Assembly (NCBI GenBank): GCA_902578805.1
Contig: CACHEH010000009.1
Location: 1-40,072, forward strand
Reading direction: 5' to 3'
Origin: an uncultured SAR116 cluster alpha proteobacterium
GTDB taxonomy: Bacteria > Pseudomonadota > Alphaproteobacteria > Puniceispirillales > Marisalimonadaceae
DNA length: 40,072 nucleotides
The notes under the pieces were generated by a model. The model was given only the letters and a program-made list of their open reading frames with translations. It was not told the DNA's origin and searched no databases. Position numbers and translations under genes: made by a program. This document shows positions 18,585-39,000 of this stretch, in pieces; positions within the stretch are counted from its first letter, which is position 1; every line of letters starts with the position of its first letter.

Positions 18585-18600
18585 AGCAAGAATTATGCCA
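18585..18600 (-). promoter_or_regulatory. sigma-54 promoter for fliO-P-Q-R-flhB
   Basis: On the minus strand the site reads TGGCAT-AATTC-TTGCT, matching the -24/-12 consensus TGGCAC-N5-TTGCW with one change and exact spacing. Transcription would begin near 18574, about 20 bases before the fliO ATG. It lies in the 108-base gap between fliN and fliO, the widest in the cluster, and divides it into two transcription units. Confidence 0.82.
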
Positions 18601-20604: not shown

Positions 20605-21936
20605 TTATGCTATTACGTTTACAATATGTCTAGATGAAACATTATCTTCCAAATCAGTTAAATTATTTTGTTTTTTTTGCTCATTATCAGATTTTAGAAA
20701 GTTATTTTGATCGTCATTATTTGGATTTTTGTTGAAACTATTTTTTGAACCAAAATATTTTGCGTTATCGTGAGCTGAAAATTCTAAATTTATACCTTGG
20801 TCATTAAAAAGTTTCTGAAGAAAATTTTCATTTTGAGTTAATGCACTAGTAACAAAATTGTTTTCTGTAATTATTCTTACATTGCCTATTGCATTTTTTA
20901 AACTTATGGACACTTTAAGCTTACCTAAATTTTTGGGTTTTAGATTAAACTCAATATCTTCACCACCATTTTTTAGGGCATTTTCTATTCTAGAGACAAG
21001 TTTTGTTGTCCAACCTTTCTGACTTAAATCAAGAGTATCTAATAACCCTTCTAAGATGGAATTCACTCCACCATTTGTGAAAGAGGTGTTATTTTGCTGG
21101 GTAAATTGATTCCCCTTACTATTAGACCCAGAAGCATTTTGTATATTAAATGCTTTATCATTAGCTTTAATTTCATTCATCTTATTTTTTCTTATTTCAT
21201 CACTAATTTGATTATTGATAAAATTTAAATTTGTATTTTTAGATAATTTTGAATCTGTTATTGATGTTTGATCAATTTTTTCTTTGTATTTTAAAGAATT
21301 AGAATTTGGTATCTGATATAATTTATTAGGGTGAACATTTTTGTTAATTTTTTTTACAAAATTTATCTTTTGATCACTTGTATTGAATTTTTTTTGATTT
21401 TTCAAAGAATTTTCAAATTCTATTTCGCTTGAATTTTTAGTGATTAAGTTTGATTTTATAGAGTTTTTTATACTTTGATCAACACCTTGTCTCATACTTT
21501 TTATAGCTGATGGTAAAGCTTTTAAACTTTGGTTTTTAATAATAGTGTTACCCTTATAATCAAGTAACTTAAAGAACAAATTTTTATTAAAATTCTTTGC
21601 TGTTTCTAAAACTCTTAATAATTTATCTTTTATTTCATTTTTTATACTTTGGTTTGTTTCGATCTCACTTTTGACTCTTTTAAAATCAGAAGAATTTAAA
21701 TTAGTGATGTTTACATTAGGTAAGATATTTGATAAATGATTTATAATATCTATATCTTCTTTTTTAAAAACAAATTCAAAATTATCAAAGTCATCATCTG
21801 TTTTTACATCATTACTAGTTAAGTTTATAGAAAACATAGATCCTAATAGAGAAGATTCTTCGTCTCCTTTATTTGAAACAGACAAAAGGTCAGAATTATT
21901 ATTTAAATCATTTACAATTTTCATTTCAAATTCCAT
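20605..21936 (-). CDS. fliK: flagellar hook-length control protein FliK
   Basis: Secreted ruler that measures hook length and signals FlhB to switch substrate. It has 443 residues: a long Asn/Lys/Ser-rich, low-complexity N-terminal and middle region (1-295), then the conserved C-terminal domain with LKPKNLGKLKVSI at 332-344. The sequence is poorly conserved outside that domain, as usual for FliK. An internal ATG at 21924 has a better Shine-Dalgarno (GGAA, six bases away) and may be the real start, shortening it by four residues. It lies between fliJ and fliL. Confidence 0.88.
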   Translation of the reverse strand: MEFEMKIVNDLNNNSDLLSVSNKGDEESSLLGSMFSINLTSNDVKTDDDFDNFEFVFKKEDIDIINHLSNILPNVNITNLNSSDFKRVKSEIETNQSIKNEIKDKLLRVLETAKNFNKNLFFKLLDYKGNTIIKNQSLKALPSAIKSMRQGVDQSIKNSIKSNLITKNSSEIEFENSLKNQKKFNTSDQKINFVKKINKNVHPNKLYQIPNSNSLKYKEKIDQTSITDSKLSKNTNLNFINNQISDEIRKNKMNEIKANDKAFNIQNASGSNSKGNQFTQQNNTSFTNGGVNSILEGLLDTLDLSQKGWTTKLVSRIENALKNGGEDIEFNLKPKNLGKLKVSISLKNAIGNVRIITENNFVTSALTQNENFLQKLFNDQGINLEFSAHDNAKYFGSKNSFNKNPNNDDQNNFLKSDNEQKKQNNLTDLEDNVSSRHIVNVIA

Positions 21937-21994
21937 ATTTCAAAACTAAATGCAAATACAGTGCCATTATTAAATTATGAAATTTAAAAATATG

Positions 21995-22395: not shown

Positions 22396-23715
22396 CTATT
22401 CATATAGTTTTAATAATGCTATTTTTGAACTTTCAAAACTTGCTTTTTCAGAACTGCTCTGGGATATAAAATCAATTAACTTTGGCCACATATCTATGGC
22501 ATTATCAAGATCTTTATCTTGACCATGTGTATACCCGCCCATTAATAGTAAATCTTTATTTTCTATGTAAGCACTTACATGTTTTCTGAAAAGTTTTGAT
22601 GCGTTCAAGTGATCATTTGTAATTAGATCATCCATAACCCTACTAATCGAATTTGGAATATCGACAGCTGGATAAACACCCATCTGAGCGTTAAATCTGC
22701 TTAATAAAATATGACCATCAAGTATTGCTCTTGCGGTATCAACAACTGGATCATTATTGTCATCTCCATCAGCTAAAATTGTGTAAAATGAAGTAATACT
22801 TCCATCTCCTTGGTCACTCGTTCCTGACCTTTCTATCAGATTAGGTATCATAGAAATTACAGATGGAGGATAACCTTTAGAGGTAGCAGCTTCTCCTAAT
22901 GACAATCCAATTTCTCTTTTAGCATGTGCAATTCTGGTTAAACTGTCCATTATTAATAATACATTTTTACCTTGATCTCTAAAATATTCTGCTATAGCCG
23001 TTGCCCTGTTAGCACCCCTAATTCTCATTAACGGCGATCTATCTGCTGGTACAGCAACAACAGTAATTTTTTGAGCTGCTTCATCTTTAAATAGTTCATT
23101 GACCATTGTTCCGACTTCTCTGGCTCTTTCACCTATTAAAGCAATTACCACAACATCTGCCTCGGTATATTTACTCATCATTCCTAACAACACTGATTTA
23201 CCTACTCCCGAACCAGCAATTATTCCAAGCCTTTGACCCTGCCCTACAGTTAATAAAGAATTTATAATTCTTACACCTACATCTAATGGCTTTGTGATCA
23301 AACTCCTTTTGAGGGGGTTCATAACTTTACCCATAAGAGGCCATTTATTTTTAATTTTTCCTAAGGGTTTTTCATCTAATGGTTTTCCAAAGGCATCAGT
23401 AACCCGTCCCAATAAAGTATTATCTACTTCTATGTATCTTCCATCATCTTGTAATGTAACCTCGCATCCTGAGACTATATGTGAGGAATTTTCTAAAATA
23501 GCTAACATGTTATACTTTTCATTAAAGCGAATAACTTCTGCGAGAATTTCTTTACCCATTTGATCTTTTACAACGCAAAGACTTCCTATGGGAACTGGAA
23601 ACGGATCACAGTAAATTATATTGCCATCAAAATGATTAACTCTTCCAGAACTAAAAATGAATTTAGGTCTTTTTATTTGGGAAATGTTGTCAATTAGTTT
23701 TTTCTCAAAGTTCAT
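22396..23715 (-). CDS. fliI: flagellum-specific ATP synthase FliI
   Basis: Hexameric ATPase that powers or primes flagellar type III export. It has 439 residues, with Walker A AGSGVGKS at 167-174, and further conserved ALIGERAREV, LLIMDSLTRIAHAKREIGL and DGHILLSRFNAQMGVYPAVD. A TTG at 23718 is immediately before the ATG; I used the ATG at 23715, with GGAAG upstream. It lies between fliH and fliJ. Confidence 0.96.
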   Translation of the reverse strand: MNFEKKLIDNISQIKRPKFIFSSGRVNHFDGNIIYCDPFPVPIGSLCVVKDQMGKEILAEVIRFNEKYNMLAILENSSHIVSGCEVTLQDDGRYIEVDNTLLGRVTDAFGKPLDEKPLGKIKNKWPLMGKVMNPLKRSLITKPLDVGVRIINSLLTVGQGQRLGIIAGSGVGKSVLLGMMSKYTEADVVVIALIGERAREVGTMVNELFKDEAAQKITVVAVPADRSPLMRIRGANRATAIAEYFRDQGKNVLLIMDSLTRIAHAKREIGLSLGEAATSKGYPPSVISMIPNLIERSGTSDQGDGSITSFYTILADGDDNNDPVVDTARAILDGHILLSRFNAQMGVYPAVDIPNSISRVMDDLITNDHLNASKLFRKHVSAYIENKDLLLMGGYTHGQDKDLDNAIDMWPKLIDFISQSSSEKASFESSKIALLKLYE

Positions 23716-23733
23716 CAATTACTTCCAGCAGCT

Positions 23734-24765
23734 TTAAGCATTATAATTGCTTTTTTCTGAATAACGCATTCCATCACAATTTAGAATTATGTCACCTCTT
23801 GAGAGTTCTTTGTTAGAAATAAAAAACTTTTTGTCTTCATTTTCATTAAAATTTTTTATTTTTGAAAGTGCTTCAAAATCTTTTTCATTAACTTCAATTG
23901 TGATTTTATCACGATAACAATTTATATTTTTTATAAATGACTTAATTTTCTTTTCATATTTTTCTGGCATTTTATCTATTTGATAACCAGCAAGTTCATA
24001 TGAAATTTCAAGGATTTTATTTTTAAAAATTTCATAGATTGCCTCCTCAGCTAATGATGTTAACGATGTTAAAATATTTTTGAAATCTTCAAAATCTTTA
24101 TTAATTGTTTCTGAAATATTGTTTGTCAATTTACTATTATCTTCAGAACTTTTAGCAGATTCATTATCACTTTTATTTATTGATTGAGAAACAGCATTTC
24201 TAACAGAATTTAAAGCTTGTTGAGTTTCATCGTCAGGCTTGTCTAATTCAGTAAACTTTAATTCATTTTCCCCATTATTTTCACTTATTTCGTTGTTACT
24301 TTCTTCATCATTAAGGATTTCTTCTTTAATCATTTTTTCAGATTGGTCATGTTCTTCATATGCCTTTTCTGTATCTTCATCACTTTTTTCATTATTGGTT
24401 TTATTGTCTAACTGTGAAGTTTCTAAAGAAATATCCTTTACTTTGCTAGCTTCATTATTGTTATCTATCTCTGTTTGTTCTGATTTTTGCCCCTCTTTAA
24501 TTAAGTCATTATTTTCTTCTAAATTTTTAATTTCCTCAGTTGTATTATTATTTACAGCATCTTCCTGAAAATTTTCTTTAGATTTAAAATCAAGAGCGAT
24601 CTCAATTAATGATTTTTTTACAAAATTAGAATTATTAGAAATATTTTTATTTTCAAAACGAGACTCAGATTGCAATTTTAAAATTGATTTTATTTCATCA
24701 CCACTTAAAGGAGCAATTTTTTGCGTATTATGATTATCCTGATCTTGTTTCATTTTTAGTTTCAT
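23734..24765 (-). CDS. fliH: flagellar assembly protein FliH, long acidic N-terminus
   Basis: Regulator of the FliI ATPase at the export gate. It has 343 residues against roughly 220-250 in most FliH proteins. Residues ~60-210 are an extremely Glu/Asn/Ser-rich, probably disordered stretch; residues ~225-343 form the helical and FliH C-terminal region (FKNILTSLTSLAEEAIYEIF, RGDIILNCDGM). The call rests on that region and position between fliG and fliI. The acidic insertion is odd and may be lineage-specific. Confidence 0.85.
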   Translation of the reverse strand: MKLKMKQDQDNHNTQKIAPLSGDEIKSILKLQSESRFENKNISNNSNFVKKSLIEIALDFKSKENFQEDAVNNNTTEEIKNLEENNDLIKEGQKSEQTEIDNNNEASKVKDISLETSQLDNKTNNEKSDEDTEKAYEEHDQSEKMIKEEILNDEESNNEISENNGENELKFTELDKPDDETQQALNSVRNAVSQSINKSDNESAKSSEDNSKLTNNISETINKDFEDFKNILTSLTSLAEEAIYEIFKNKILEISYELAGYQIDKMPEKYEKKIKSFIKNINCYRDKITIEVNEKDFEALSKIKNFNENEDKKFFISNKELSRGDIILNCDGMRYSEKSNYNA

Positions 24766-24776
24766 TTTTAAAAAAA

Positions 24777-25814
24777 TTATACATAATCATCGCCGCCGCG
24801 ACCCGCTAACACTATAGAACCTTCGTCAGACATTCTTCTGGCTACAGCAATGATTTGTTTTTGTGCTTCTTGTACTTCTGTTAATCTAACCGGTCCAAGT
24901 GCTTCCATCTCATCTTGTATATTAGCTGCGGCACGTTGCGACATACATCCAAAAAGTTTTGTCTTCAATTCTTCGTCAGCACCTTTGAGTGCAAGTATTA
25001 TCAAATCATCCTCAACAGCTCTAAGAAGGGTTTGAAGAGACTTATCATCGGATAACAATAATGTTTCAAATACAAACATACTGTCCTGAATATCTTGCAT
25101 TAATTGTTTATCGTCCTTTAAGATTTCCTTCATTATCTTTGCTTCACCGTCTTGGCTTAAGAAATTCATTATTTTAGCTGCTGCTGGTACTCCTCCAACT
25201 TTACTAGCTCTTAAACTAGCATTAGATGAAAAAACTTTTTGCATAACCCTATCTAATTCCTTTAGTGCTTCAGGCTGTACTGTTTCTAAAGTTGCTATCC
25301 TTTTGATTATGTCTGATTGACTTTTTTCAGGCATAAAGGTCAAAACATCTGACGCAGTAGATGGTTCTAAGTAAGAAATAATTAATGCTATAATTTGAGG
25401 ATGTTCTTCAATAATCAAGTCAGCAATTGATCTTGCATCAAGCCAATCAAGTATTTCAATTGCTTTATTACTATCTGATGGTGTAATTTTTCCTAAGACA
25501 GTTTGTGCTTTATCTTCACCTAACGATTTAGTTAATACGTTTTTAATATAGCCTCCGCCAGATATACCTAAACTAGTTTGAGCTTTAATAATTGCTAAAA
25601 ATTCGTCTAAAACTAAATTAACTGTGTCTTGTCCCAAACCTTGAACAGAATACATTGCCGAACCAAGAACTTGAACCTCTTTTGGTGAAAGATTACCCAT
25701 TATTTCTGCAGCTTCATCTTCACCGATTAACATCATCAAGATTGCACATTTTTGTGTTCCTGTTAATCCCTGGTAAACTTCGTCTGCACTCGGTTTTTTT
25801 GCTGCCTCTGCCAT
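24777..25814 (-). CDS. fliG: flagellar motor switch protein FliG
   Basis: C-ring component facing the stator, where torque is generated. It has 345 residues, with the FliG N domain (TGTQKCAILMMLIGEDEAAE), the middle EHPQ motif at 137-140 followed by IIALIISYL, and the C-terminal domain with charged helix (LFGCMSQRAAANIQDEMEAL). Normal length. It is about 20 bases after fliF. Confidence 0.97.
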   Translation of the reverse strand: MAEAAKKPSADEVYQGLTGTQKCAILMMLIGEDEAAEIMGNLSPKEVQVLGSAMYSVQGLGQDTVNLVLDEFLAIIKAQTSLGISGGGYIKNVLTKSLGEDKAQTVLGKITPSDSNKAIEILDWLDARSIADLIIEEHPQIIALIISYLEPSTASDVLTFMPEKSQSDIIKRIATLETVQPEALKELDRVMQKVFSSNASLRASKVGGVPAAAKIMNFLSQDGEAKIMKEILKDDKQLMQDIQDSMFVFETLLLSDDKSLQTLLRAVEDDLIILALKGADEELKTKLFGCMSQRAAANIQDEMEALGPVRLTEVQEAQKQIIAVARRMSDEGSIVLAGRGGDDYV

Positions 25815-25835
25815 TTTAATATCCTACTCTCTCAT

Positions 25836-27548
25836 TTATTCTTTTTCCATCATGTTTTTAAACACACTGGAAACCCGACCTGCTTCATCACCAACAATCA
25901 TTCTAATTACAGCAACTTTGTCATCATAAGTGTTAGCTGTATCAAGCATTTCTGCTGATATAGCGGCCTTCTTTGGTTTTAACTTTGCTTTTATGTCTTC
26001 AAGAGATTCCCCTTCCTGAACTTCAATTTTATCGTCTACGTCATCTTCGTCATCGGATGTCATTACAGCAGCTCCAGACGTATAACCTGCTGGAACTAGA
26101 ACTCTTTTTAGCAAAGGATGCAATGCACCAAATATAACAATTGCAAAAATTAAAACTGTTGCTAATTGTTTAGCCAGTTCTTTTACAGACTCATTTTCAT
26201 ACCATGGAACCTCTACTGCCTCAAGAATATCTACAAAAGGACTACTTGTAACTGTAACGCTATCACCTCTTGCTTCGTCAAAACCAAGAGCTTCTTGAAC
26301 AAGTGATTTTATCTCTAATAGTTTTTCGTCAGTAAATTTTTCATATGTTACAACACCTTCAGCTGTAATTATTTTATTTTCTCGAATTATTACAGCTGCT
26401 TTAATTTTCTTAATCTCTCCATATTGAGCTTTGGTAGTTTCCACTTTTCTACTAACTTCATAATTTTTTACAGATGTTTGACTTCTTTGTTTCAAACTTC
26501 CACCTACGTCTTTTCCTTCTGGAACTTGTGTTTTTAAATCAGGGGCCAAAGGTGGTGCATTTGATAACGCACCTGGGATACCTCTAGCTTCGGGATTTGC
26601 GCTTTCGTCTAATGTACTTTGTTCACTCCTAAGAGCATTACCTTTAGGGTCTACAGACTCTTCTGTAATTTCTCTTTGCGTAAAATTCATATCTACATTT
26701 ATTTCAGCCTTTAAATTACCGGCTCCTACTATAGGTGTTAATAAAGAAATAATTCTAGATTTATATATTTCACCTAATCTCATTGTTTGTGACATTTGTT
26801 CACTAGAAATTGAAGCAGAGACATCATTAGAGGGTTTAGACAAAAGTTCTCCAAATTGATCAACTACTGTTATATTTTCTGATGGAAGATTTGGTACAGA
26901 GGATGCAACAAGATGGACTATTGATTGAACTTGTTGCCTTCCCAGAGTTCTACCATTTGCTAATTTAACAAATACTGATGCTGAAGGAAGAGCAATTTCT
27001 CTTGCAAAAACTGTTTTTTCAGGAATAGCTAGATGTACTCTAGCAGAACTTACTCCAGATATATGATTTATTGAACGTGATAATTCAGCTTCCAAAGACT
27101 GCTTAATTTTTATAGCTTCCACAGACCTGCTGGTTCCCATAGGCATGTCACCCAAGCTATCATATCCATCTGGTACTGAGGATGGTAGACCTTCTCCAGC
27201 TAGTAACATTCTAGATTCATGATAATCTTTTACTGGGACTGTTACTTCTCCAGTGGATGGATTAAGGGATGCATTAACACCATTGGATTTCAATGTCTGT
27301 ATAACTAAAGATTTTTCACTTTCTGGAAGTGTTGCAAATAAAGTTGTCATGTCAGATTTTTGCATTGTAAAAAATACTATTAAACCTACAAAAGCAACAA
27401 TGACTCCAAAAATTAATGGAACTGATTTTTGCACGGCAGGATCAGATGTCATTTTTCTAACATTTGAAATTGAATTAGAAATCCTGCTAATAATACCTGT
27501 ACTTTGGTTTATACCTGTTAGATCATTTCCTGTTGTTGCTTCTGCCAT
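25836..27548 (-). CDS. fliF: flagellar M-ring protein FliF
   Basis: Forms the MS-ring of the basal body in the inner membrane. It has 570 residues: first transmembrane segment at about 42-62, ring-building domains (SVEAIKIKQSLEAELSRSI, SSARVHLAIPE), a variable periplasmic loop, second transmembrane segment at about 455-475 (ATVLIFAIVIFGALHPLLKR), and a cytoplasmic FliG-binding tail near 520-570 ending VSSVFKNMMEKE. Normal length. It lies between fliE and fliG. Confidence 0.96.
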   Translation of the reverse strand: MAEATTGNDLTGINQSTGIISRISNSISNVRKMTSDPAVQKSVPLIFGVIVAFVGLIVFFTMQKSDMTTLFATLPESEKSLVIQTLKSNGVNASLNPSTGEVTVPVKDYHESRMLLAGEGLPSSVPDGYDSLGDMPMGTSRSVEAIKIKQSLEAELSRSINHISGVSSARVHLAIPEKTVFAREIALPSASVFVKLANGRTLGRQQVQSIVHLVASSVPNLPSENITVVDQFGELLSKPSNDVSASISSEQMSQTMRLGEIYKSRIISLLTPIVGAGNLKAEINVDMNFTQREITEESVDPKGNALRSEQSTLDESANPEARGIPGALSNAPPLAPDLKTQVPEGKDVGGSLKQRSQTSVKNYEVSRKVETTKAQYGEIKKIKAAVIIRENKIITAEGVVTYEKFTDEKLLEIKSLVQEALGFDEARGDSVTVTSSPFVDILEAVEVPWYENESVKELAKQLATVLIFAIVIFGALHPLLKRVLVPAGYTSGAAVMTSDDEDDVDDKIEVQEGESLEDIKAKLKPKKAAISAEMLDTANTYDDKVAVIRMIVGDEAGRVSSVFKNMMEKE

Positions 27549-27570: not shown

Positions 27571-27882
27571 TTAAACGGGCATATTCATTATATCTTTATA
27601 TGAACTCAAAACTTTATTTCTAACATTTAAAGTCATTTGAAATGCAATATTAGAAATTTGTTGTTGCATAATAACTTTTGTAAGGTCAGTTTCTTTTCCA
27701 AGTTCATATTCTTTAGTAATTTTTGAAGCCTTATTCTGACTCTCAGCTACAGAGTTTAAAGCGTCATTTATTTTTTTTGAAAATTCTTCGGGTTTTTTAT
27801 TTTCTGAAAACGCCTCATTTGCTTTTTCCAAAATATTTTGTCTTAGAACATTTGTACTTATATTTTGATTTGAAATCTTCAT
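27571..27882 (-). CDS. fliE: flagellar hook-basal body protein FliE
   Basis: Rod-base protein joining the MS-ring to the rod. It has 103 residues, and ends with the characteristic KVIMQQQISNIAFQMTLNVRNKVLSSYKDIMNMPV-type region (DLTKVIMQQQISNIAFQ, YKDIMNMPV). It lies 15 bases after the flbD-like gene and 22 before fliF. Normal length and order. Confidence 0.95.
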   Translation of the reverse strand: MKISNQNISTNVLRQNILEKANEAFSENKKPEEFSKKINDALNSVAESQNKASKITKEYELGKETDLTKVIMQQQISNIAFQMTLNVRNKVLSSYKDIMNMPV

Positions 27883-27897
27883 TAACTATTTTTCCCT

Positions 27898-29094
27898 TTA
27901 AGTTACTTTCGCGAAAGCCAATTGATCTGCAAATGAATCTACTGATGAATTTTCATTAATTTTTGACAATGATTTATCAATCATGATTGATTTCTCATTA
28001 ATGATGTTTTGATTACATAATACAAGAGCTCTCTGAAGAGTGTTTTCGAGTTCTCTTACATTCCCTGGCCAATTATGATTTAATAATAATTCTCTTGCCT
28101 TACTGGTTAAATAAGGCGCAGATTTATTTTCATGATTATGTTTATCTAAAATTTTGATTGCAATTGGTAAAATATCATCTTTTCTAGAAGATAAATTACG
28201 AGTTTGAAGTGGAAACACATTAAGCCTATAATATAGATCCTCTCTAAATCTTGATTGGTTAACTTCATTAGCCATATCTCTATTTGATGTCGCTAAAACC
28301 CTTACATCAACGTCAATATCTCTCTGTCCACCAACAGGGGTTACTTTTCTTTCCTGCAAAACTCTCAGTAATTTTGCTTGCAAAGATAGAGGCATTTCAG
28401 AAATTTCGTCTAATAGTAATGTTCCCTTGTCAGCTGCACGGAAAATACCTTTGTTTGCATTTGATGCTCCAGTAAAAGCTCCCTTTTCGTGACCAAAAAG
28501 AATAGCCTCTAACATATTTTCTGGTATAGCAGCACAATTAACAGCAACAAATGGTTCATCTTTCCTTTTAGAATTTTCATGCAAATAATTTGCAAGCACT
28601 TCTTTACCTGATCCTGTTGGACCATTTATAAATACTGTTACATCAGTGCTTGCAACCTTTCTTGCTAATGACAATAAATCATAAGTTTTTGCGTCACCTG
28701 CTGAAAATGATACATTTGGACAGCAAGCATTAAATATTAATTCTAGAGAATATTGATCTTTATAGTCTGCAACATTAATTCTTTTTACAGCACCACCTAG
28801 CTCATCTTTAATTTCTATACCATCGCTATTGCAGTCACTAGTAATAATGATAATTTTTGTCAGTTTGGCCTGTCTTGCAATTGAAATTAATTTTGATGAA
28901 CCCCCAATTTCTTTCTCAAAAACATCTGAACAAACTATAGTTTCCGCTTGGTAACCAACAAGATCAATACCAAAAAAATCAGGTTTTGAACTACCAATAC
29001 CCGCCTTTATAACAGTAATGTCTCTATTTTCAAAGATATCACATAGATTGTTCGCAATCTTTAAACTATTATTAACTACAATAACTTGGCTCAT
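27898..29094 (-). CDS. flbD: FlbD-like sigma-54 activator lacking a DNA-binding domain
   Basis: AAA+ activator of sigma-54 RNA polymerase. It has 398 residues: an N-terminal receiver-like domain (1-~130) without an obvious phospho-acceptor motif, then the AAA+ domain with Walker A GPTGSGKE (158-165), GAFTGA (205-210) and Walker B LLLDE (226-230). It resembles Caulobacter FlbD. It ends ~30 residues after the AAA+ domain, and fliE begins 15 bases later, so the Fis-type helix-turn-helix is truly absent rather than frameshifted away. Helicobacter FlgR is a known activator without it. A sigma-54 promoter and an AGGAG precede it; it is the first gene of the fliE-N unit. Confidence 0.85.
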   Translation of the reverse strand: MSQVIVVNNSLKIANNLCDIFENRDITVIKAGIGSSKPDFFGIDLVGYQAETIVCSDVFEKEIGGSSKLISIARQAKLTKIIIITSDCNSDGIEIKDELGGAVKRINVADYKDQYSLELIFNACCPNVSFSAGDAKTYDLLSLARKVASTDVTVFINGPTGSGKEVLANYLHENSKRKDEPFVAVNCAAIPENMLEAILFGHEKGAFTGASNANKGIFRAADKGTLLLDEISEMPLSLQAKLLRVLQERKVTPVGGQRDIDVDVRVLATSNRDMANEVNQSRFREDLYYRLNVFPLQTRNLSSRKDDILPIAIKILDKHNHENKSAPYLTSKARELLLNHNWPGNVRELENTLQRALVLCNQNIINEKSIMIDKSLSKINENSSVDSFADQLAFAKVT

Positions 29095-29126
29095 AAAACA
29101 CTCCTAAAATTATCAGAAATGTTAAA

Positions 29127-29142
29127 AGCAAGAAGCTTGCCA
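29127..29142 (-). promoter_or_regulatory. sigma-54 promoter for flbD-like/fliE-N operon
   Basis: On the minus strand the site reads TGGCAA-GCTTC-TTGCT, matching TGGCAC-N5-TTGCW with one change and exact spacing. Transcription would start near 29116, about 20 bases before the flbD-like ATG at 29094. Candidate activator boxes lie 85-145 bases upstream, the usual enhancer range. Confidence 0.85.
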
Positions 29143-29201
29143 AACTACAAATTGAAAGAAGCTTATTGGCATTTTTAATTAAAACATAGCAATTTTTTAT
29201 T

Positions 29202-29207
29202 TATAAT
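29202..29207 (+). promoter_or_regulatory. candidate -10 box for the FleQ-like gene
   Basis: A perfect TATAAT at 29202-29207 with TTAAAA 17 bases upstream (29179-29184) could start a transcript near 29214. A rival pair, TTGATT at 29209 with TATTAT at 29233, overlaps FleQ-like box 1. AT-rich DNA makes these weak calls. Confidence 0.35.
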
Positions 29208-29227
29208 ATTGATTTATTGGTAAAAAA

Positions 29228-29241
29228 GTCATTATTATGAC
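29228..29241 (+). promoter_or_regulatory. FleQ-box-like palindrome 1
   Basis: GTCA-TTATTA-TGAC has both exact arms and the spacer length of the Pseudomonas FleQ box GTCA-N6-TGAC. It lies 40 bases upstream of the FleQ-like start codon and about 100 upstream of the divergent sigma-54 promoter. It could serve in both autoregulation and enhancer function. Confidence 0.55.
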
Positions 29242-29257
29242 AAATGTTATAAATTTT

Positions 29258-29271
29258 TTCAATTATTTGAC
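29258..29271 (+). promoter_or_regulatory. FleQ-box-like palindrome 2
   Basis: TTCA-ATTATT-TGAC has one mismatch in the arms of GTCA-N6-TGAC. It starts exactly 30 bases after box 1, about three helical turns, placing both on one DNA face. It lies in the 5' leader of the FleQ-like gene, ending just before its ribosome-binding region. Confidence 0.5.
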
Positions 29272-29280
29272 GGATTTTAA

Positions 29281-30423
29281 ATGAATGTTGTCGATAAATT
29301 AACAACCCCATCTAAACAAAATAAGTCTATATTAGACAAACTTAATGAATTGATTGATGGCGAAAGTCCTGAAACTAAATCAATGAAGAACTTAATTGCA
29401 ATGGTATCTCAAACAGATAGTACTGCATTAATTTTAGGTGAAACTGGAACTGGTAAAGATATTGTTGCTCAAGCTATTCACAAGTGTTCAAACAAAAAAG
29501 GACCCTTCATAACAGTAAATTGTGCTGCAATTCCGTCTGAATTACTAGAGTCAGAACTTTTTGGACATGAAAAAGGTTCATTTACTGGTGCAGATAAACA
29601 AAGAAAAGGGAGGTTTGAACAATCTAGTGGCGGGTCTCTTTTTCTTGACGAAATTGGTGATATGCCCTTACCACTTCAAGCCAAACTATTAAGAGCTATT
29701 GAAAGTAAGACCATACAGAGAGTTGGTGGTTCACAAGACATTAAAATAGATTTAAGGTTGATTTGCGCAACACACAGAGATCTTGAAAAAAAAGTTGAAA
29801 ATGGCGAATTCAGAGCAGATTTGTTTTTTAGAATAAATGTTCTGCCAATAAATGTGCCTTCACTAGCTGAGAGAAGAACTGACATACCAAGTCTGCAAAA
29901 AACTCTATTAACACTTCTAAAAGTGGATGACTCCATGAAACCAATCTTTACACCAGATGCTATAACAGCACTTTGTAAACATAATTGGCCAGGCAATGTT
30001 CGTGAGTTAAAAAATGTAATTGAAAGAGCTTGCATAATCTTTCCAGGAAAAGAAATTACAAGCACTAATGTTTACGAAAATTTACTAAGATTGAAAGTCC
30101 CAACAGTTGCCGAAGAGCAAGAAGCACTATGGGAAATGACATCAGATTTAAGTGGAATAGATAACCTTGAAGAAAATGAGCTCAAAAATAATCTTGAAGA
30201 TTACTTACCGCATCCTAAAAATTATAAAAATTGGTTTTCTTTTTATGATGAAATAGACTTAAGAAGACATCTTCAAGATGTTGAAATTGTTCTAATAGAA
30301 GAGGCCCTTGAAAAAACAAACAATAAGGTAGCTCTTGCAGCAGATAAGCTAAAGCTTAGAAGAACTACCTTAATTGAAAAAATGAAAAAATATTCAATAA
30401 ATGTAAATCAAAATATTAATTAA
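29281..30423 (+). CDS. FleQ-like sigma-54 activator without N-terminal domain
   Basis: AAA+ enhancer-binding protein of 380 residues. The N-terminal regulatory domain of FleQ/FlrA is absent: Walker A GETGTGKD is already at 53-60. The sigma-54 contact loop reads GSFTGA (99-104) instead of GAFTGA; Walker B is SLFLDE near 120. The C-terminal Fis-type helix-turn-helix (~335-378) includes RRTTLIEKMKKYSI, close to that of Pseudomonas FleQ. It is divergent from the flbD-like gene, across two FleQ-box-like palindromes. CGGA precedes the ATG at 29281. Its end overlaps the convergent 664-aa flagellin by eight bases. Confidence 0.85.
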   Translation: MNVVDKLTTPSKQNKSILDKLNELIDGESPETKSMKNLIAMVSQTDSTALILGETGTGKDIVAQAIHKCSNKKGPFITVNCAAIPSELLESELFGHEKGSFTGADKQRKGRFEQSSGGSLFLDEIGDMPLPLQAKLLRAIESKTIQRVGGSQDIKIDLRLICATHRDLEKKVENGEFRADLFFRINVLPINVPSLAERRTDIPSLQKTLLTLLKVDDSMKPIFTPDAITALCKHNWPGNVRELKNVIERACIIFPGKEITSTNVYENLLRLKVPTVAEEQEALWEMTSDLSGIDNLEENELKNNLEDYLPHPKNYKNWFSFYDEIDLRRHLQDVEIVLIEEALEKTNNKVALAADKLKLRRTTLIEKMKKYSINVNQNIN

Positions 30424-32410
30424 TTAATCTTAAAAAAACTTCACCACTCGCGTTAGCTTGAGCAAGCATAGAAGAGGCTGCTTTAGACATAATTTGAGCT
30501 TTTGTTAGCCTAGCTGTTTCTAGAGCAAAATCAGCATCTTCTATTTTAGATAATCTTGAGGAAGAATTATTCTTTACGTCAAGAAGATAACTTAATCTAT
30601 GATCAATTGCATTTTCACTAGCACCAAATTTTGCTCTTGTGTTTGATATTGTATCAATTGCAGTATCGATATTAGTAAGAGCATTTGTAGCATTAGAAGA
30701 ACTAGATACAGAGATTATGGATCCTGGAGCTGACGCGCTACTTGAAGCCTGAGCTTGAAATCCTAGCTCTCCTACATCATCTCCAGAAATTTTGATTACA
30801 TCACCAGCGTCATGAGTTAATAATATTTGTCCCTTAAATGTAACAGAACTGTTCACAGAAATAGTGGCTCCTGTTGCATCAGTATGACCGTCAAAAAAAA
30901 CACCCGGTGTACCATTATGGGAAATTACAATATCAGCACCACTTGCACTGGCAAGTTGAACTTCTCCACTTGAGTTAGCTGAGGCAACAATATCCCCTAT
31001 TGACGCATTATTAATTGCAGTAATGGTTTCAGTTTCATTAGTAACACTTCCAAAATTAATTGTATTTCCATTAATACTTATATTTGAAGCAGCTGTTGAG
31101 GCTTCTGAAAAATTCAAATCTAGTGTTACTAAATTATCCCCAGAAGCGGTTACATTAGTTGATGAAGAAACTGCATTAATAGCAATAGCTTTAGCAGCTG
31201 CAGACGCGCTGTCGGACGCTCCAATTTCAATGTCATTAATTTTAATATCATGAGATGCCGTAAGTGCATTTGTTGATACTAAGTCAGATCTAATAATTGT
31301 GCTTGAATCAACTTCATTAAATCCAAATCTTGCCAAATCATCAATATTTCCACTATTAGACGCATATCCATTAGCTTTTGTCATGGCTTCAATTTTCACA
31401 AATGTACCGTCAACATTTTCTAATTTTATATATCCTAAATAAGTGCCCGCAGTAAAGCCAGCATCAGTTGGTGCATTTCCTCCAATAACTATATCATTAC
31501 CAGTAGTATTTGATAATGTAATTGTGTTATCAGAATTGAGTGTTGCTATTACACCCCCAGCTTGCTCATTAATTCCATCTACTAAGTTTGCAAGACTCGT
31601 TTGTGTGGAGATTATATTTGTATTAATTGTAAAAGTATCACTCATACTCAAAGAATTCTTTGCAGCTGATGTTACTTTATTAAAACCAGTAGCTGTTGCG
31701 CCATGAGAATTTGAATTTGCATTAATAGCTGTCACAAGTGCCGCTGCAGTATTATTTCCTGATGATAAGTTATCAGTTAAGTTTGCTGCTAAAGCGTTTT
31801 GTGAGTTAATTTTGATATCACTTGCTGCAAGATTACTACTATTGTAAGTAAATCCCGTTACTCGTCCACTGGTAAACTCTTTTACTCCAGATGATCCAGA
31901 CAAACCTAAACCTGTACTATCAGATTTAACAAGATCGATAGAAACTATATCATCCTTAGTTTCTCCAACTAAAAAACTTACCTTATCTTTAGTTCCATCT
32001 AACAATTTGATAGTATTAAATTTTATTAATTTAGTTAAAGCATCTATTTCTGTTAAGTAGGAATCTATTTCAACCTGTAGTGTGTTTCTATCAGCTGTTG
32101 TTAAAGTTGAACTGCCTCCTTGGACAGCCAATTCTCTTATTCTAGCAAGTATGTTATTTATTGAACTAAGACCACTATCAGCAGTTTGAGTAAGTATTTT
32201 TCCCTCAGCACCATTCGAAATTGCTTCACCTAAGGATAAAACTTGAGCATTTAACCTTGAAATAGGGCCTAAAGATGCTGGATCATCAGATGCACGATTA
32301 ATTCTTTTACCAGAAGATAACCTTTCTGTACTTTCAGTCATCTCCTTTATTTGATTAGTCATATTTCTTTGAATAAATTGAGACGTAGTCAAATTACCAA
32401 TATTAAGCAT
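30416..32410 (-). CDS. flagellin, 664 aa
   Basis: Filament subunit exported by the flagellar type III system. N-terminal D0/D1 (1-~140) has MTESTERLSSGKRINRASDD and IRELAVQGG; the C-terminal D1/D0 (~575-664) has SKIEDADFALETARLTKAQI. The central region (~180-545) includes flagellin IN-type units (NNITLSNTTGNDIVIGG-like) homologous to the 1010-aa flagellin. The extreme C-terminus, GEVFLRLIN, departs from the usual VLQLLQ/LLALLQ ending, suggesting a minor or specialised subunit. GGAGG precedes the ATG. No sigma-54 site was found upstream. Confidence 0.93.
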   Translation of the reverse strand: MLNIGNLTTSQFIQRNMTNQIKEMTESTERLSSGKRINRASDDPASLGPISRLNAQVLSLGEAISNGAEGKILTQTADSGLSSINNILARIRELAVQGGSSTLTTADRNTLQVEIDSYLTEIDALTKLIKFNTIKLLDGTKDKVSFLVGETKDDIVSIDLVKSDSTGLGLSGSSGVKEFTSGRVTGFTYNSSNLAASDIKINSQNALAANLTDNLSSGNNTAAALVTAINANSNSHGATATGFNKVTSAAKNSLSMSDTFTINTNIISTQTSLANLVDGINEQAGGVIATLNSDNTITLSNTTGNDIVIGGNAPTDAGFTAGTYLGYIKLENVDGTFVKIEAMTKANGYASNSGNIDDLARFGFNEVDSSTIIRSDLVSTNALTASHDIKINDIEIGASDSASAAAKAIAINAVSSSTNVTASGDNLVTLDLNFSEASTAASNISINGNTINFGSVTNETETITAINNASIGDIVASANSSGEVQLASASGADIVISHNGTPGVFFDGHTDATGATISVNSSVTFKGQILLTHDAGDVIKISGDDVGELGFQAQASSSASAPGSIISVSSSSNATNALTNIDTAIDTISNTRAKFGASENAIDHRLSYLLDVKNNSSSRLSKIEDADFALETARLTKAQIMSKAASSMLAQANASGEVFLRLIN

Positions 32411-32805: not shown

Positions 32806-33243
32806 TTATTTCTCTAAAGATGGTATTTCTTCCCACCCTTCCATGATTTGTTTAACAACATCAATAGCTTTTAAAATTCCATCTTCAATTTTTTGACTGA
32901 ACCCTCTAATTATTTCGTAACGGCAATATTCGTATAACTGGAAAAGATTATTAGCAATTTCTAAAGCTTTATCAAAATCTAAGCTAGTTTGAAGACCATA
33001 AATTATGGATAGTGATTTACTAAGATTTTTAGCTTTATGGCGAACATTTTTTTCTTCAAAAGCTTTATCGACTAGATACTGATTTTGTTTTCTTTTTCTT
33101 TCATCTTGAATGTCTAAGACAATTTTTTGCATTGAATTGACCAACTCTTTCATCAATGCTCTAACTATTTCATGTGAAGATGTAACAGCATTGGAAGATT
33201 GTTGCGTCTTTTTATATGCATTTAATTGTTCGTTATTTACCAT
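32806..33243 (-). CDS. fliS: flagellar export chaperone FliS
   Basis: Cytoplasmic chaperone that binds the flagellin C-terminus and prevents early polymerisation. It has 145 residues: NAYKKTQQSS start, SKSLSIIYGLQTSLDFDKAL, EIANNLFQLYEYCRYEI and the ending VKQIMEGWEEIP are typical FliS. No good Shine-Dalgarno precedes the ATG. It sits among the flagellin genes, as expected. FliD, which usually precedes it, is absent here. Confidence 0.92.
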   Translation of the reverse strand: MVNNEQLNAYKKTQQSSNAVTSSHEIVRALMKELVNSMQKIVLDIQDERKRKQNQYLVDKAFEEKNVRHKAKNLSKSLSIIYGLQTSLDFDKALEIANNLFQLYEYCRYEIIRGFSQKIEDGILKAIDVVKQIMEGWEEIPSLEK

Positions 33244-33317: not shown

Positions 33318-33674
33318 ATGATTGTTAATAATTTACAAAACCCATATGCTATAAATGAGATTAATGCTTCTAAACCGCTTAGGAATGAAAGCTCTAGTTT
33401 ATCTGCAAACAGTATGCCAACTAGTGATAGAATAGTTTCTGAAACTAGTGTTACAAAAAGACCTTTAAATAACACCCCTCCTAATTTCGTTAGGCATGTT
33501 TATGTAAACACTCAGACAGTTAGTAATGGATCATTAACTGAGAGCTTTATAAGATCAAGAGCTTCTCTATCTCCATCATATTTTTATAATGAGATTGTTA
33601 CTCGTTATAATATGATCAGTGCGATTCCCAAAGATTTAACTCATTTAAAAAAATCAGTTGAAAAATACGCGTAA
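33318..33674 (+). CDS. unknown 118-aa protein upstream of the plus-strand flagellin
   Basis: No family recognised. The first ~70 residues are Asn/Ser/Pro-rich and likely flexible (SLSANSMPTSDRIVSE); the last ~40 look structured (PSYFYNEIVTRYNMI). There is no Shine-Dalgarno before the ATG at 33318, so it may be leaderless or start elsewhere. It is divergent from fliS and directly precedes the sigma-54 promoter of the 754-aa flagellin. The composition looks coding. Confidence 0.55.
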   Translation: MIVNNLQNPYAINEINASKPLRNESSSLSANSMPTSDRIVSETSVTKRPLNNTPPNFVRHVYVNTQTVSNGSLTESFIRSRASLSPSYFYNEIVTRYNMISAIPKDLTHLKKSVEKYA

Positions 33675-33693: not shown

Positions 33694-33709
33694 TGGCATA
33701 ACAATTGCA
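33694..33709 (+). promoter_or_regulatory. sigma-54 promoter of the 754-aa flagellin
   Basis: The site reads TGGCAT-AACAA-TTGCA, matching TGGCAC-N5-TTGCW with one change and exact spacing. Transcription would start near 33720, giving a ~24-base leader to the ATG at 33743. This rules out the upstream ATG at 33710 as the start codon, as it would precede the transcript. Confidence 0.87.
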
Positions 33710-33742
33710 ATGTTTCCCTACGAAATTAATTTGGAGATTGAT

Positions 33743-36007
33743 ATGCCAACAGTAAATTCCAATACTGCAGCTCAGTTTGCATTAAATAAAATGAATGCAA
33801 CAGAGCGTGAAATGACAACGGCAATGGAACGTTTATCGTCTGGAAAACGAATAAATCATGCAGGTGATGACGCAGCTGGCGCAGCAATTGCTGACAGAAT
33901 GACTGCACAAATAAAAGGTTTATATCAATCAGTACGAAATGCAGCTGATGTTATTTCAATGGCACAAGTTACTGAAGGTGCCTTAGACGAATCTTCTTCA
34001 ATAATTCAAAGAATAAGAGAATTAGCAATTCAATCAGCATCAGATGTTATGAACGCAGAAGAACGTTCTTATTTGGACGCAGAAGTTGTTCAAATGTTAG
34101 CAGAATTAGATCGCGTAACTAGAGATACTACTTTTAATGAAATAGCAGTTTTAGACGGGTCATTTGCAGATAGACGTTTTCAAATTGGAACACATGAACG
34201 TGAATTCGCCCAATTATCAATATCATCAATGAGATTAGACAGCTTAGGAGCGTACAAGGCTAAATCTCAAGGAACAGAGACAACTGATGACGCTGGTGGC
34301 CCAGTTGACAATGATAATTTAGCATTGAATGCTTATGCTGTTGCTGATACCTCAGAAACCAATCTGGTACAGGCTGAATCTTTTACTATTCACGGTATTT
34401 TAGGGAGTTCGTCTGTTACAGCTGCAGAAGGATCAACTGTTAGAGATATAGCTACTTCTGTTAATGCAGTTTTTGACTCTACAGGTGTTACAGCTATAGC
34501 TTCTACTCAACTTAAAATTCAGGCAAAAACTTTAGATGCTCTTTTTAATGGTCAAACAAGTGTTTCATTCAGCATTCAAGGCAAAAACACTACAGCAACT
34601 ACAATAGCTGCAAACGTTACATTAAGTAACAATGAAGGAAGTTCAGTACTTTCAGAACTAAGAGATTCAATTAATAATTATACAACAACCACTGGGGTTA
34701 CAGCTACACTTTCAACAGATAAATCATCAATCATAATGGTACAGAATGAAGGTTATGACATAAAACTAGGAGACGTTAATTTTGCTGGCGATACTAGTAC
34801 TGACGGGGCTCAAAGAACTTTGTTAGTAACAAGCTTAGATAATGACGAAGTTGTGGCTGGAGACGCAGTATCTTTAGGTGACACAAATGTAACAACAACA
34901 GATCAAGATGGTATATTTTCAGGTGACACTGGTGGCAGTATAACTATTGGAAAATTAACAACAGGAAATGGTACGGGTGGTACAGCTTTCACATCAACAG
35001 GTCCTCGCAAACATGCAACAAGCGCTACTTTAGTGGTTGCACAACAACAAATTAGACAAACTCAGGAAGGTATTAATGGTACTGCGTCCATGACTATTGC
35101 TAACTCCGCTACCATTCTTAATTCTTTTATAACAATTACCTCAGATGCTGCAACAACAACTACTGGCCAACCTGATACAACTTTTAAGATAGTTGGAACT
35201 GATGTACATGGTAATGCTCAAGAAGAAACAATTCCAGTATTTAGCGGTGCTGCAACTCAAACATCTACTAAAGTATTTGGTACAGTTACATCTGTAGTAC
35301 CCTCAAGAGAACACGCAACTGCTAAAGTTAATGTAGGAGTTTTGCAAACAATCGCTAAGCAAGCAGCACTTGTTACCGTTACAAGCTCAACTGGTGACGA
35401 AAGTGATAAAACAATTACAGTAACTGGTGTTGGAATGGACGGTACATCACTATCTGAAGTAATAACTGGACCAGCAGTAGGTAAAACAGTTACAGGCAGA
35501 AGAATTTTTACAGAAATACACACAGTTGTGGTATCTGGTGATACAGCTGCGTCAATTGATATTGGATTAAAAGCAGCAGATTCTGTAATTATTACTGGAC
35601 AACTTGAAATGTCCTCTAGTAACAGTTTTACAGTTGTTGGCGAAGATGGAAAAGGTTTATTTGAAGCATCACCCGGTGCGGCATCATTAGATAAATTATC
35701 TGGCGTGAATGTTAAGACAAGACAATCATCAATAGATGCCTTACGTGTTTTAGACAGATCCCTTGATAGAATTCATAAAGAAAGAGCAAAACTTGGAGCT
35801 CTAATGAGTAGAATGGAAAAAGCAATTGATAACTTATCAAATGTTGCTTTAAACACAGATGCTTCGAGAGGAAGAATAGAAGACGCTGATTTTGCAAAAG
35901 AGTCAGCCAGATTAACAAAAGCACAAATTTTACAACAATCTGCAATGGCCATGATAGCTCAAGCAGGAAAAGCACAACAAAATGTGCTTCAATTATTACA
36001 AAATTAA
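33743..36007 (+). CDS. flagellin, 754 aa, with two phage-like repeats
   Basis: Filament subunit. N-terminal D0/D1 has MPTVNSNTAAQFALNK and RLSSGKRINHAGDDAAG; the C-terminal part has RIEDADFAKESARLTKAQI and ends NVLQLLQN. The start at 33743 follows GGAG by six bases and lies downstream of a sigma-54 promoter; the longer frame from 33710 is excluded. Standard flagellins are 270-500 residues; the excess is a central domain including two units (about residues 446-534 and 535-609) with the pattern GTDxxGxxxxE. It is richer in G and C than its neighbours. It is probably a major filament protein. Confidence 0.95.
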   Translation: MPTVNSNTAAQFALNKMNATEREMTTAMERLSSGKRINHAGDDAAGAAIADRMTAQIKGLYQSVRNAADVISMAQVTEGALDESSSIIQRIRELAIQSASDVMNAEERSYLDAEVVQMLAELDRVTRDTTFNEIAVLDGSFADRRFQIGTHEREFAQLSISSMRLDSLGAYKAKSQGTETTDDAGGPVDNDNLALNAYAVADTSETNLVQAESFTIHGILGSSSVTAAEGSTVRDIATSVNAVFDSTGVTAIASTQLKIQAKTLDALFNGQTSVSFSIQGKNTTATTIAANVTLSNNEGSSVLSELRDSINNYTTTTGVTATLSTDKSSIIMVQNEGYDIKLGDVNFAGDTSTDGAQRTLLVTSLDNDEVVAGDAVSLGDTNVTTTDQDGIFSGDTGGSITIGKLTTGNGTGGTAFTSTGPRKHATSATLVVAQQQIRQTQEGINGTASMTIANSATILNSFITITSDAATTTTGQPDTTFKIVGTDVHGNAQEETIPVFSGAATQTSTKVFGTVTSVVPSREHATAKVNVGVLQTIAKQAALVTVTSSTGDESDKTITVTGVGMDGTSLSEVITGPAVGKTVTGRRIFTEIHTVVVSGDTAASIDIGLKAADSVIITGQLEMSSSNSFTVVGEDGKGLFEASPGAASLDKLSGVNVKTRQSSIDALRVLDRSLDRIHKERAKLGALMSRMEKAIDNLSNVALNTDASRGRIEDADFAKESARLTKAQILQQSAMAMIAQAGKAQQNVLQLLQN
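35078..35569 (+). repeat. two GTD-G-E type repeat units in the 754-aa flagellin
   Basis: Unit A (35078-35344) contains FKIVGTDVHGNAQEETI and KVFGTVTSV; unit B (35345-35569) contains ITVTGVGMDGTSLSEVITGP and RRIFTEIHTV. Both follow the scheme: beta-rich lead, GTD/G-x-G, TE-I, aromatic-TV-x-I/V, ending V/I-x-I/V-G. The repeats are divergent at DNA level. Confidence 0.7.
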
Positions 36008-36074: not shown

Positions 36075-39000
36075 TTATCCTTGAAGAAGAGCTAGTAAGT
36101 TTTGCTTAGATGCGTTTGCCTGAGCTAACATTGATGTTGCAGCTTGTGACAAAATCTGAGCTTTCGTTAGATTAGATGTCTCCTGAGCAAAATCAGCATC
36201 CTGAATTCTAGATTGAGCAGCTTCTGTATTAACTTTCAAAGTTGTTAAGTTACTTATAGAAGCATCAATTCTATTTTCAATGGCACCAAAAGATGATCTA
36301 AACTTAGATACTTGTTCTATTGCTTTATCGATCAATTCTAGGGAAGCATTTGCTCCAGCCATAGTCTCAACTGACACTTTTGTACCAGAAACTTCAAACT
36401 CTGCACTTTGACCCTGAATACCTAACTTTTGAAGAATGGTTTCAGTTGAGCCAAATGTACCGTCAACACCAGTCCTCATATTTGTATTCGAGTCTGCAGC
36501 AACAGTTTCAACTTTTATTGGGGTACCTGTTGAGTTAGAAAGTTCTAATTTACCACGAGAAGTAAAATCATCTCCTATACTTGCAGTATATCCAATTTTA
36601 ACAGCGTTTGATGTAAAATCAACATCAAGGTCAATTCTTGATACGGTTGCAAAAGCTTTAGTACCAGTAGAAGTACCACTCTGAGCAGGACCAACTATTA
36701 CTTCGGTTAAACTATTACCAAGCATGTCAGTACCATGAACAGTGATTGTACCATTGGCTGCTGTAGCATTGTTTCCTTCAGTTATTGTAATCAATGCACC
36801 ACCAAGATTTAAACTTGTAGCACCGGAAACTAATGTCAATGCAGTAGCAGCACCATGGTCACCAGAAGCGACTAATCCATCATCATCTGCTACCTTATTA
36901 CCATGATTGGCTGCGTTAGTTCCACCAGCATTAGTGTTACCAATTGTACTTGCATTGGTATCAGCTTGTGAGGCAGTTATAGAAGTAACAGACTCGTACA
37001 CATTTTTACTTAAAGCTTCAAGTGTACCACCAGCTCCTCTTACAACCTCAGTAACTGTATTACCAAAAACATCTGTACCTGTTATAGTATAGTTTTGGTC
37101 AGCTTGACCAGTTATTGAACCAATGTCAAAAGTAAGTGTAGAAGTTTGATCAGCTACGATTTCAGTGACAGTATTAAAAGTTTTAATACCATCAACAGTA
37201 CCATTTTGTGTTGCACCAGCAATAACCTCAGTTTGGACGTTTCCATCCATATCTGTACCAGTAATAGTAAAGTTTATACCAGATGCATCACCGTTATTTA
37301 GTTCTGTAATCCTGACCATTCTACCTTTTGGTGTTGCGCTTGTAGCTGTTGAAGTTAATGTCATTGCAGATGTAGAAGCTGTCTGACCATCAGACAATTC
37401 ATCAGTATCTGTTACCGCACCAGCAGAAGTAAAAACAACTTGGCTATTAAAGTTTGATGGGCTCAACAATGTCAAGCTTGTATCTGTGATTGCAGCACTT
37501 GCACGTAGTGAATCAACGTCTTCATCACTACCTCCAATAATACCACTAACACTTACTGTTCCATTAACATCTTTAAATGCCCTTATGAAATCAGTATCAC
37601 CCTGATGAGTTACTCTAATGTCCACACCAGATGCACTTGATAATGTAACAGCACCATCAGAATTAGCTTTAGCTCTTATGTCACCTACTGATGCATTATT
37701 GATTGCAGTAACAACACCTTCAATGCCATTAGCAGATGTTACATTAATTGAAGTACTATTAACAAAAAATTCAGTTGTACCACCAGGCATTGCACCAAAA
37801 TTTAAAGCTAGCTGAACTTCGTTACTTGCTTTAGCAGTTACGCCTGACTCAGTAGATACTGCATTAATAGCTTCAGCTATAGAAGAAGCTTGACCTGTAG
37901 CTGAGGCTCCAATTAATACATCGTTAATTTTGATCTCATTAGCAGATAGAGCTGTACCACTTACAGTATCAGTTTCTAATATTGAACCAGATGAGGTTTC
38001 ATTAAAACCTAGAGCATTAACATCACCAATAGTACCTAGACCATCAGTATATCCGTTGACTTCACTTCCTGCTTCAATTCTAACAGCGGAACCATCTAAG
38101 TTTTTAAGACTTACAAAACCTGTATATGTTCCTGCTGTGAAACCAACATCTGAGGCAGCTGAACCTGCAATAACAATAGCTTCACCAGTTTTATTTGACA
38201 ATGTTATTGTATTATCAGCATTTAATGCAGCGTTTATACCAGACACAGCTTCGTTAATGTTGGCTGTCAATTTTGAATATGATGTGGCAAGAGCGACAGT
38301 GTCACCATTAATTGTAAAAGTAGCAGATTGTGAAAAAGTACCTTTAGCAGTTGATTGAACAGAATTAAAAGCGTCTGCTTCTGCACCATGTATACCAGTA
38401 TTAGCGTTTATTGCATCTGCTAATAACTTAGCTTCATTAGCTCCAGAAGCTGAAGTGTCCTGATTAAAGTCAGTTGCAAAAGCATTAAACCCATTTATCT
38501 TTACATCGGCAGCTGCAATAGTATTAGCAGTGTTACTAAAATCTTTTTCATCAATTCTTTCACTTGTTAATGTAGTAACACCAATAGCACCACTTAACCC
38601 TAATGAAATTGAATCAGAACTTTCTAAATCTACTTTCAATGTATCAGAGGCATTAATACCGATTTGGAATTTAACATCTACATTACTACCATCTAGTAAT
38701 TTAACATTATTAAAATGAGTGTTTGCAGATATTTTATCAATTTCTTCAATGAGTTGATCAACTTCAGATTGTATCATGCTTCTGTCAGAGTCACTTAAAG
38801 TGCTGTTTCCAGCTTGAACTGAAAGTTCTCTTACTCTCTGCAACATATTTTCAACTTCACCCAAAGCGCCTTCAGCTGTTTGTGTCATTGAAATTGCATC
38901 ATATGAGTTTCTGATTGCGACACCAAGACTTTTAACTTGGGATTCCATTTTAGAAGCGATGGCTGAACCAGCAGCATCGTCAGCGGCAGAATTGATTCTG

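Follow-up and report, generated by a model that had tools for sequence, protein, structure and literature searches.

A divergent pair of FleQ/FleT-type sigma-54 activators in a flagellar cluster of the SAR116 lineage

How can two neighboring sigma-54 activators, each lacking a domain that the other carries, run a flagellar cascade? This question is raised by two divergent genes that lie 186 bases apart inside a flagellar cluster of an uncultured SAR116 alphaproteobacterium, in a stretch of DNA of 40,072 nucleotides (hereafter, the window; coordinates in Table 1). The initial annotation had read their products as an FlbD-like and a FleQ-like protein that form a mixed oligomer, in which one partner anchors to DNA while the other contacts sigma-54 and receives signals. 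Our analysis indicates that the pair is real, conserved and functional-looking, and that the two proteins very probably form a FleQ/FleT hetero-oligomer.

Anatomy of the divergent pair

The limits and strands of both open reading frames (ORFs) agreed with the initial annotation, and the AAA+ and HTH layouts and loops that it had described were confirmed by Pfam searches and by reading the translations. The minus-strand protein, FleT, matched the sigma-54 AAA+ and lid domains, carries a GAFTGA loop and gave no Pfam match to a helix-turn-helix (HTH). The plus-strand protein, FleQ, has an AAA+ domain with a GSFTGA loop and an HTH, with only about 26 residues ahead of the AAA+ domain. A remnant of an HTH lost 3' of fleT was ruled out, because fliE begins 15 bases past the fleT stop codon and leaves no space for it. 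The ORF list of the window contains no ORF of at least 80 aa between fleQ and fleT, and no kinase gene adjoins fleT. Among 57 FleT-type proteins, an HTH is absent from the 25 domain families listed, and each of the other seven families matches at most two members; HTH_8 was present in 14 of 14 FleQ-type proteins, with no receiver family among the 15 listed.

No Pfam match was obtained for the N-terminus of FleT, and its predicted fold, from a model of modest confidence, resembles receivers. Sequence comparison revealed that the phospho-acceptor position is not conserved, so the proposed signal reception by FleT is not supported in its conventional form. A conserved N-terminal domain of about 120 residues is common to SAR116 FleT and R. 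sphaeroides-like FleT, and the published passages available on FleT describe it as lacking both outer domains. This domain is perhaps receiver-like, as the model suggests, and a new point with respect to those descriptions.

Control of FleQ by c-di-GMP appears unlikely: of the Pseudomonas aeruginosa FleQ positions taken from PMC10723142, R144, R151, E330 and R334 were kept in 0 of 8 alphaproteobacterial and 2 of 2 gammaproteobacterial rows, in an alignment that is uncertain around positions 330-334, and R185 was kept in 4 of the 8 alphaproteobacterial rows. Three large flagellin genes lie near the pair, at 30416-32410 (−), 33710-36007 (+) and 36075-39107 (−), encoding 664, 765 and 1010 aa; beyond them there is a match to family-41 glycosyltransferases (39192-40061).

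Table 1. Features of the fleT/fleQ locus and sigma-54-type sites in the window
Feature	Position	Strand	Remarks
fleT	27898-29094	−	398 aa; sigma-54 activator of FleR/FlrC descent, without HTH
FleT N-terminal domain	28717-29094	−	Residues 1-126; predicted fold resembles receivers; phospho-acceptor position not conserved
FleT AAA+ and lid domain	27976-28713	−	Residues 128-373; Pfam
GAFTGA loop of FleT	28465-28482	−	Read in translation
fleQ	29281-30423	+	380 aa; FleQ-type activator without N-terminal domain
FleQ AAA+ and lid domain	29359-30090	+	Residues 27-270; Pfam
GSFTGA loop of FleQ	29575-29592	+	Read in translation
FleQ HTH (HTH_8)	30271-30393	+	Residues 331-371; Pfam
fliE	27571-27882	−	First structural gene past fleT
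fliF, fliG, fliH, fliI	22396-27548	−	Counted to the fleT operon from gene order
Sigma-54-type −24/−12 promoter of fleT, TGGCAAGCTTCTTGCT	29127-29142	−	About 32 bases before the start codon
FleQ-box-like palindrome, GTCATTATTATGAC	29228-29241		Between the genes; candidate enhancer for fleT
Second, imperfect FleQ-box-like site, TTCAATTATTTGAC	29258-29271		
Sigma-54-type site, no mismatch	21951-21966	−	Before fliK-like gene 20605-21936 (weak fliK match)
Sigma-54-type site	18585-18600	−	Before 143-aa gene 18123-18554 (fliO by position only)
Sigma-54-type site	33694-33709	+	Before the 765-aa flagellin
Sigma-54-type site	33404-33419	−	Upstream of fliS (32806-33243)
Sigma-54-type site	33877-33892		Within a flagellin gene; one of six in the window

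Descent and relation to the Rhodobacter sphaeroides system

In a maximum-likelihood tree, window FleT was placed within a clade of HTH-less proteins (support 100/96, and 99/98 when more rows were included). The columns of the HTH should have been removed from this tree by the 60% filling filter, because fewer than 60% of the rows have one. Together with its sister group, the FleT clade joined FleR/FlrC of Pseudomonas, Aeromonas and Vibrio (99/93, 98/95), and FlbD formed a separate clade (100/97). The best structural matches of the FleT AAA+ domain were to FlrC of V. cholerae (55-56% identical). Although FlbD of Caulobacter is likewise a flagellar sigma-54 activator of alphaproteobacteria, membership of window FleT in the FlbD family was ruled out by this tree, by the absence of an HTH and by a score of 303 bits against a cut-off of 750 for the NCBIfam FlbD model, whereas the majority of the FlbD-type relatives tested match this model almost as far as its C-terminus. 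The name FlbD-like was therefore wrong by phylogeny, and the minus-strand protein is of FleR/FlrC descent. The sister group comprises five proteins (L102 and L114-L117), among them one of Qipengyuania that keeps HTH_8; the latter has only about 64 residues ahead of the AAA+ domain, and the other four have about 100-143.

The pair resembles the FleQ-FleS-FleR system of Pseudomonas, whose counterparts in Vibrio are FlrA-FlrB-FlrC. The gene order in P. aeruginosa is fleQ-fleS-fleR-fliE, so that fleR occupies the place that fleT has in the window. In Pseudomonas, however, both activators are full length and the kinase gene fleS lies between them, whereas window FleT has neither the receiver with a conserved phospho-acceptor, nor the HTH, nor the neighboring FleS kinase of a FleR/FlrC response regulator. 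The simplest history suggested by these sequences would be the loss of the kinase, of the N-terminal domain of FleQ and of the HTH of FleR, in an order that the tree does not specify. The N-terminal domain of FleQ may have been lost more than once, and FleQ_alpha needs two changes in the tree. Another likeness is to HrpR/HrpS of Pseudomonas syringae, a co-dependent hetero-hexamer of two sigma-54 activators (PMC4145663); these proteins serve type III secretion instead of flagella, the N-terminal domain is missing from both, and the passages available report no missing HTH for either of them (PMC3162934, PMC4145663).

The closest correspondence was with the Fla1 system of R. sphaeroides (also named Cereibacter sphaeroides). 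FleT of this species has no DNA-binding domain, fails to activate on its own and assembles with FleQ into hetero-oligomers; its production is controlled by FleQ and RpoN2, and FleQ serves class II promoters while FleQ/FleT serves class III promoters (PMC11999139). There, fleT forms one operon with fliEFGHIJ (PMC7277832), and FleQ alone serves fleT-fliEFGHIJ. The window agrees with this system in both domain layouts, in the position of fleT before fliEFGHI(J) as judged from gene order, in a sigma-54 flagellar cascade and in common descent. The comparison relied on genome G491, which we infer to be R. sphaeroides-like since its four rpoN matches fit the four rpoN reported for C. sphaeroides (PMC11999139). 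Its FleT belongs to the clade of window FleT (99/98), with 53% identity over 333 aligned columns and no HTH in a domain search; its FleQ, which has HTH_8 and no N-terminal domain, groups with window FleQ (100/98; 49% identical over 355 aligned columns). Two differences were noted: fleQ is divergent and adjoins fleT in the window but is separated from it by about 20 kb in the R. sphaeroides-like genome, and same-genus genomes have one rpoN each where it was found, as against four.

Because the window proteins fall in the R. sphaeroides FleQ and FleT groups, they are likely to form a mixed oligomer, which would be of a kind already known. This part of the initial proposal is supported by homology to the tested proteins (PMC11999139), and the view that it would be an unusual way to run a flagellar cascade did not hold, since the arrangement had already been published for R. 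sphaeroides. The cluster of this species has been classed as fla3-type, which accounts for 23 of 284 clusters in 306 Rhodobacterales; the available part of that classification does not mention FleQ or FleT (PMC11974857). In the open-licence literature, we found no paper on SAR116 that deals with FleQ; as far as that literature reaches, the system is newly recognised in this lineage.

The FleT clade extends to several other families. Rhodobacteraceae were represented by family f26, recognised by a Rhodobacterales 16S sequence from a Thioclava plasmid (93% identity to G388, the best of 385 genomes searched), and the search covered 394 genomes, nearly one per genus. A full-length FleT-type protein was found in 25 of them; FleT lies directly before fliE in 24 of these 25 loci, and a divergent FleQ adjoins it in only 8. 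The divergent pair also occurs in families f12 and f22 and, with fliEFGHI, on a plasmid of Octadecabacter arcticus; a plasmid search with FliI gave Octadecabacter as its best match (57.9%). The FleQ of O. arcticus (L101) has a very long branch, and its constraint may have changed. In family f108, FleT was present without FleQ beside it.

Occurrence, sigma-54 loops and selection

The initial annotation had suggested looking for both truncated forms in relatives. In a sample of 61 SAR116-order genomes (that of the window and 60 relatives), the two genes occur together in 37, more than expected by chance; from the matches listed (E 7e-111 or better for FleT-type, 4e-104 or better for FleQ-type), each type is present in 38 genomes and fliE in 39. 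Three half cases each stop at the end of a contig: G031 and G025 show one gene of the pair, truncated where its contig ends, and G034 shows only fliE, at base 101 of its contig. In G024 the genes are on two contigs, both cut. In the other 21 genomes the two genes and fliE are all absent, and the fliE-bearing genomes of other families in the order have both genes in 15 of 15 cases. No uncut locus with a single gene of the pair was found among the 61 genomes.

These counts bear on the possibility that the two proteins act independently, with homo-hexamers of FleQ bound to DNA and homo-hexamers of FleT acting from solution. Helicobacter FlgR and Chlamydia CtcC lack a DNA-binding domain and act from solution. 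The existence of activators without a DNA-binding domain is described in PMC3162934, and FleT keeps its ATPase residues and a sigma-54 loop. Furthermore, among 20 FleT-bearing genomes outside SAR116 (19 of f26 and one of f108), a FleQ-type match was obtained in 17; in the other three (G827, G470 and G661) no FleQ-type protein was found, the best matches being FleT itself or weaker, other activators. Six of the 17 FleQ-type matches end before the HTH, and their C-termini resemble the FleQ HTH by eye; in G661 (L246), FleT is also not beside fliE. The joint occurrence of the genes in SAR116 and the dependence of R. sphaeroides FleT on FleQ argue against this possibility, which we consider improbable.

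The ring proposed initially, in which FleQ only anchors and FleT alone engages sigma-54, takes its support from the difference between GAFTGA and GSFTGA in the window genome. However, in match lists made up mostly of close relatives, 123 of 240 FleT-type proteins have GAFTGA and 117 have GSFTGA, and FleQ-type proteins divide into 104 with GSFTGA and 17 with GAFTGA; since both loops occur in both families, a division of labor based on the loop fails. P. aeruginosa FleR also has GSFTGA, and, as mentioned above, FleQ of R. sphaeroides serves the fleT operon by itself. Judging from these sequences, the loop difference is ordinary variation, and so strict a specialization of the ring seems very unlikely. 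A dead-partner model was also ruled out, as the Walker A lysine, the Walker B Asp-Glu and the equivalents of FleQ R300 and R363 were kept in 48 of 48 aligned proteins.

Both genes are under purifying selection and neither looks decayed. For 15 of the available loci, dN/dS against the window was 0.027-0.072 for the FleT AAA+ domain (15 genomes), 0.055-0.147 for the FleT N-terminal part (13 of the 15, two having saturated synonymous sites) and 0.028-0.056 for FleQ (14 genomes); these values are rough, with synonymous divergence near saturation. The absence of an HTH, of a kinase gene beside fleT and of a conserved phospho-acceptor might suggest that FleT is a FleR copy in decay, retained through linkage, and that FleQ does all the work, but this reading is largely refuted, and retains hardly any likelihood, given these ratios, the single FleT clade across several families and the absence of stop codons inside the FleT matches listed by the genome search.

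Promoters and the proposed cascade

At a tolerance of one mismatch, the window contains six sigma-54-type sites against 1.08 expected, a number not attained in any of 200 shuffles; a tolerance of two mismatches gave no excess (19 against 14.6 expected). The whole genome has 48 such sites, compared with 7 for the reversed pattern. In G000 (contig C8, 28282-28297; L155), a perfect site lies 10 bases before a 230-aa ORF that resembles a lytic transglycosylase by eye. rpoN was not found in the window's own assembly, which is 70% complete, and was found in 47 of the 61 genomes. In one related family, seven genomes (G037, G040, G049, G052, G056, G058 and G060) have two rpoN matches each; because two of them lack the fleT/fleQ pair, the second rpoN is not tied to flagella.

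The palindrome between the genes, GTCATTATTATGAC, resembles the proposed FleQ consensus GTCaNTAAAtTGAC (PMC6120874), which is disputed in Pseudomonas. Intergenic regions were compared in 19 sequences of the genus (the window and 18 loci) and 15 wider ones, the other fetched loci being left out; the sequences are related, and the counts are thus not independent. The sigma-54 site of fleT and the FleQ-box-like site are both present in 19 of 19 genus sequences, the box being exact in all of them. In the wider set, 7 sequences carry the exact box and the other 8 a version within one mismatch; a sigma-54 site within two mismatches was found in 10 and not in the remaining 5. Neither the window, with 8 boxes at up to one mismatch where 10.1 would be expected, nor the genome, with 5 sites where the reversed control gives 9, is enriched in the box. 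No exact box lies near the other sigma-54 sites of the window; the fliS site has one-mismatch boxes in its vicinity, at 32884 and 33274. The boxless later sites would suit a second mode of activation with FleT.

We regard it as highly probable that the two genes represent, in SAR116, the FleQ/FleT hetero-oligomer system of R. sphaeroides Fla1, its behavior in SAR116 being deduced from that system. FleQ would bind DNA through its HTH and, as a homo-oligomer positioned at the 29228-29241 box, switch on the sigma-54 promoter ahead of fleT-fliEFGHI. FleT, with no DNA binding of its own, would then accumulate and join mixed AAA+ rings with FleQ, leading to the activation of later sigma-54 flagellar promoters; both partners retain their ATPase residues and a sigma-54 loop. 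The N-terminal domain of FleT would control assembly rather than receive phosphate. As a tentative extension, possible rather than probable, the FleT family, that of R. sphaeroides included, could have a hidden, conserved, phosphorylation-dead receiver-like domain through which protein-protein control replaces kinase control, with the entry of FleT into FleQ rings gated by a flagellum-assembly checkpoint.

These results indicate that the split activator of one laboratory species is an old, selected system in SAR116 and several other alphaproteobacterial families. They also suggest a route by which FleQ/FleT arose from FleQ-FleS-FleR, and they name a conserved FleT domain that the papers call absent.
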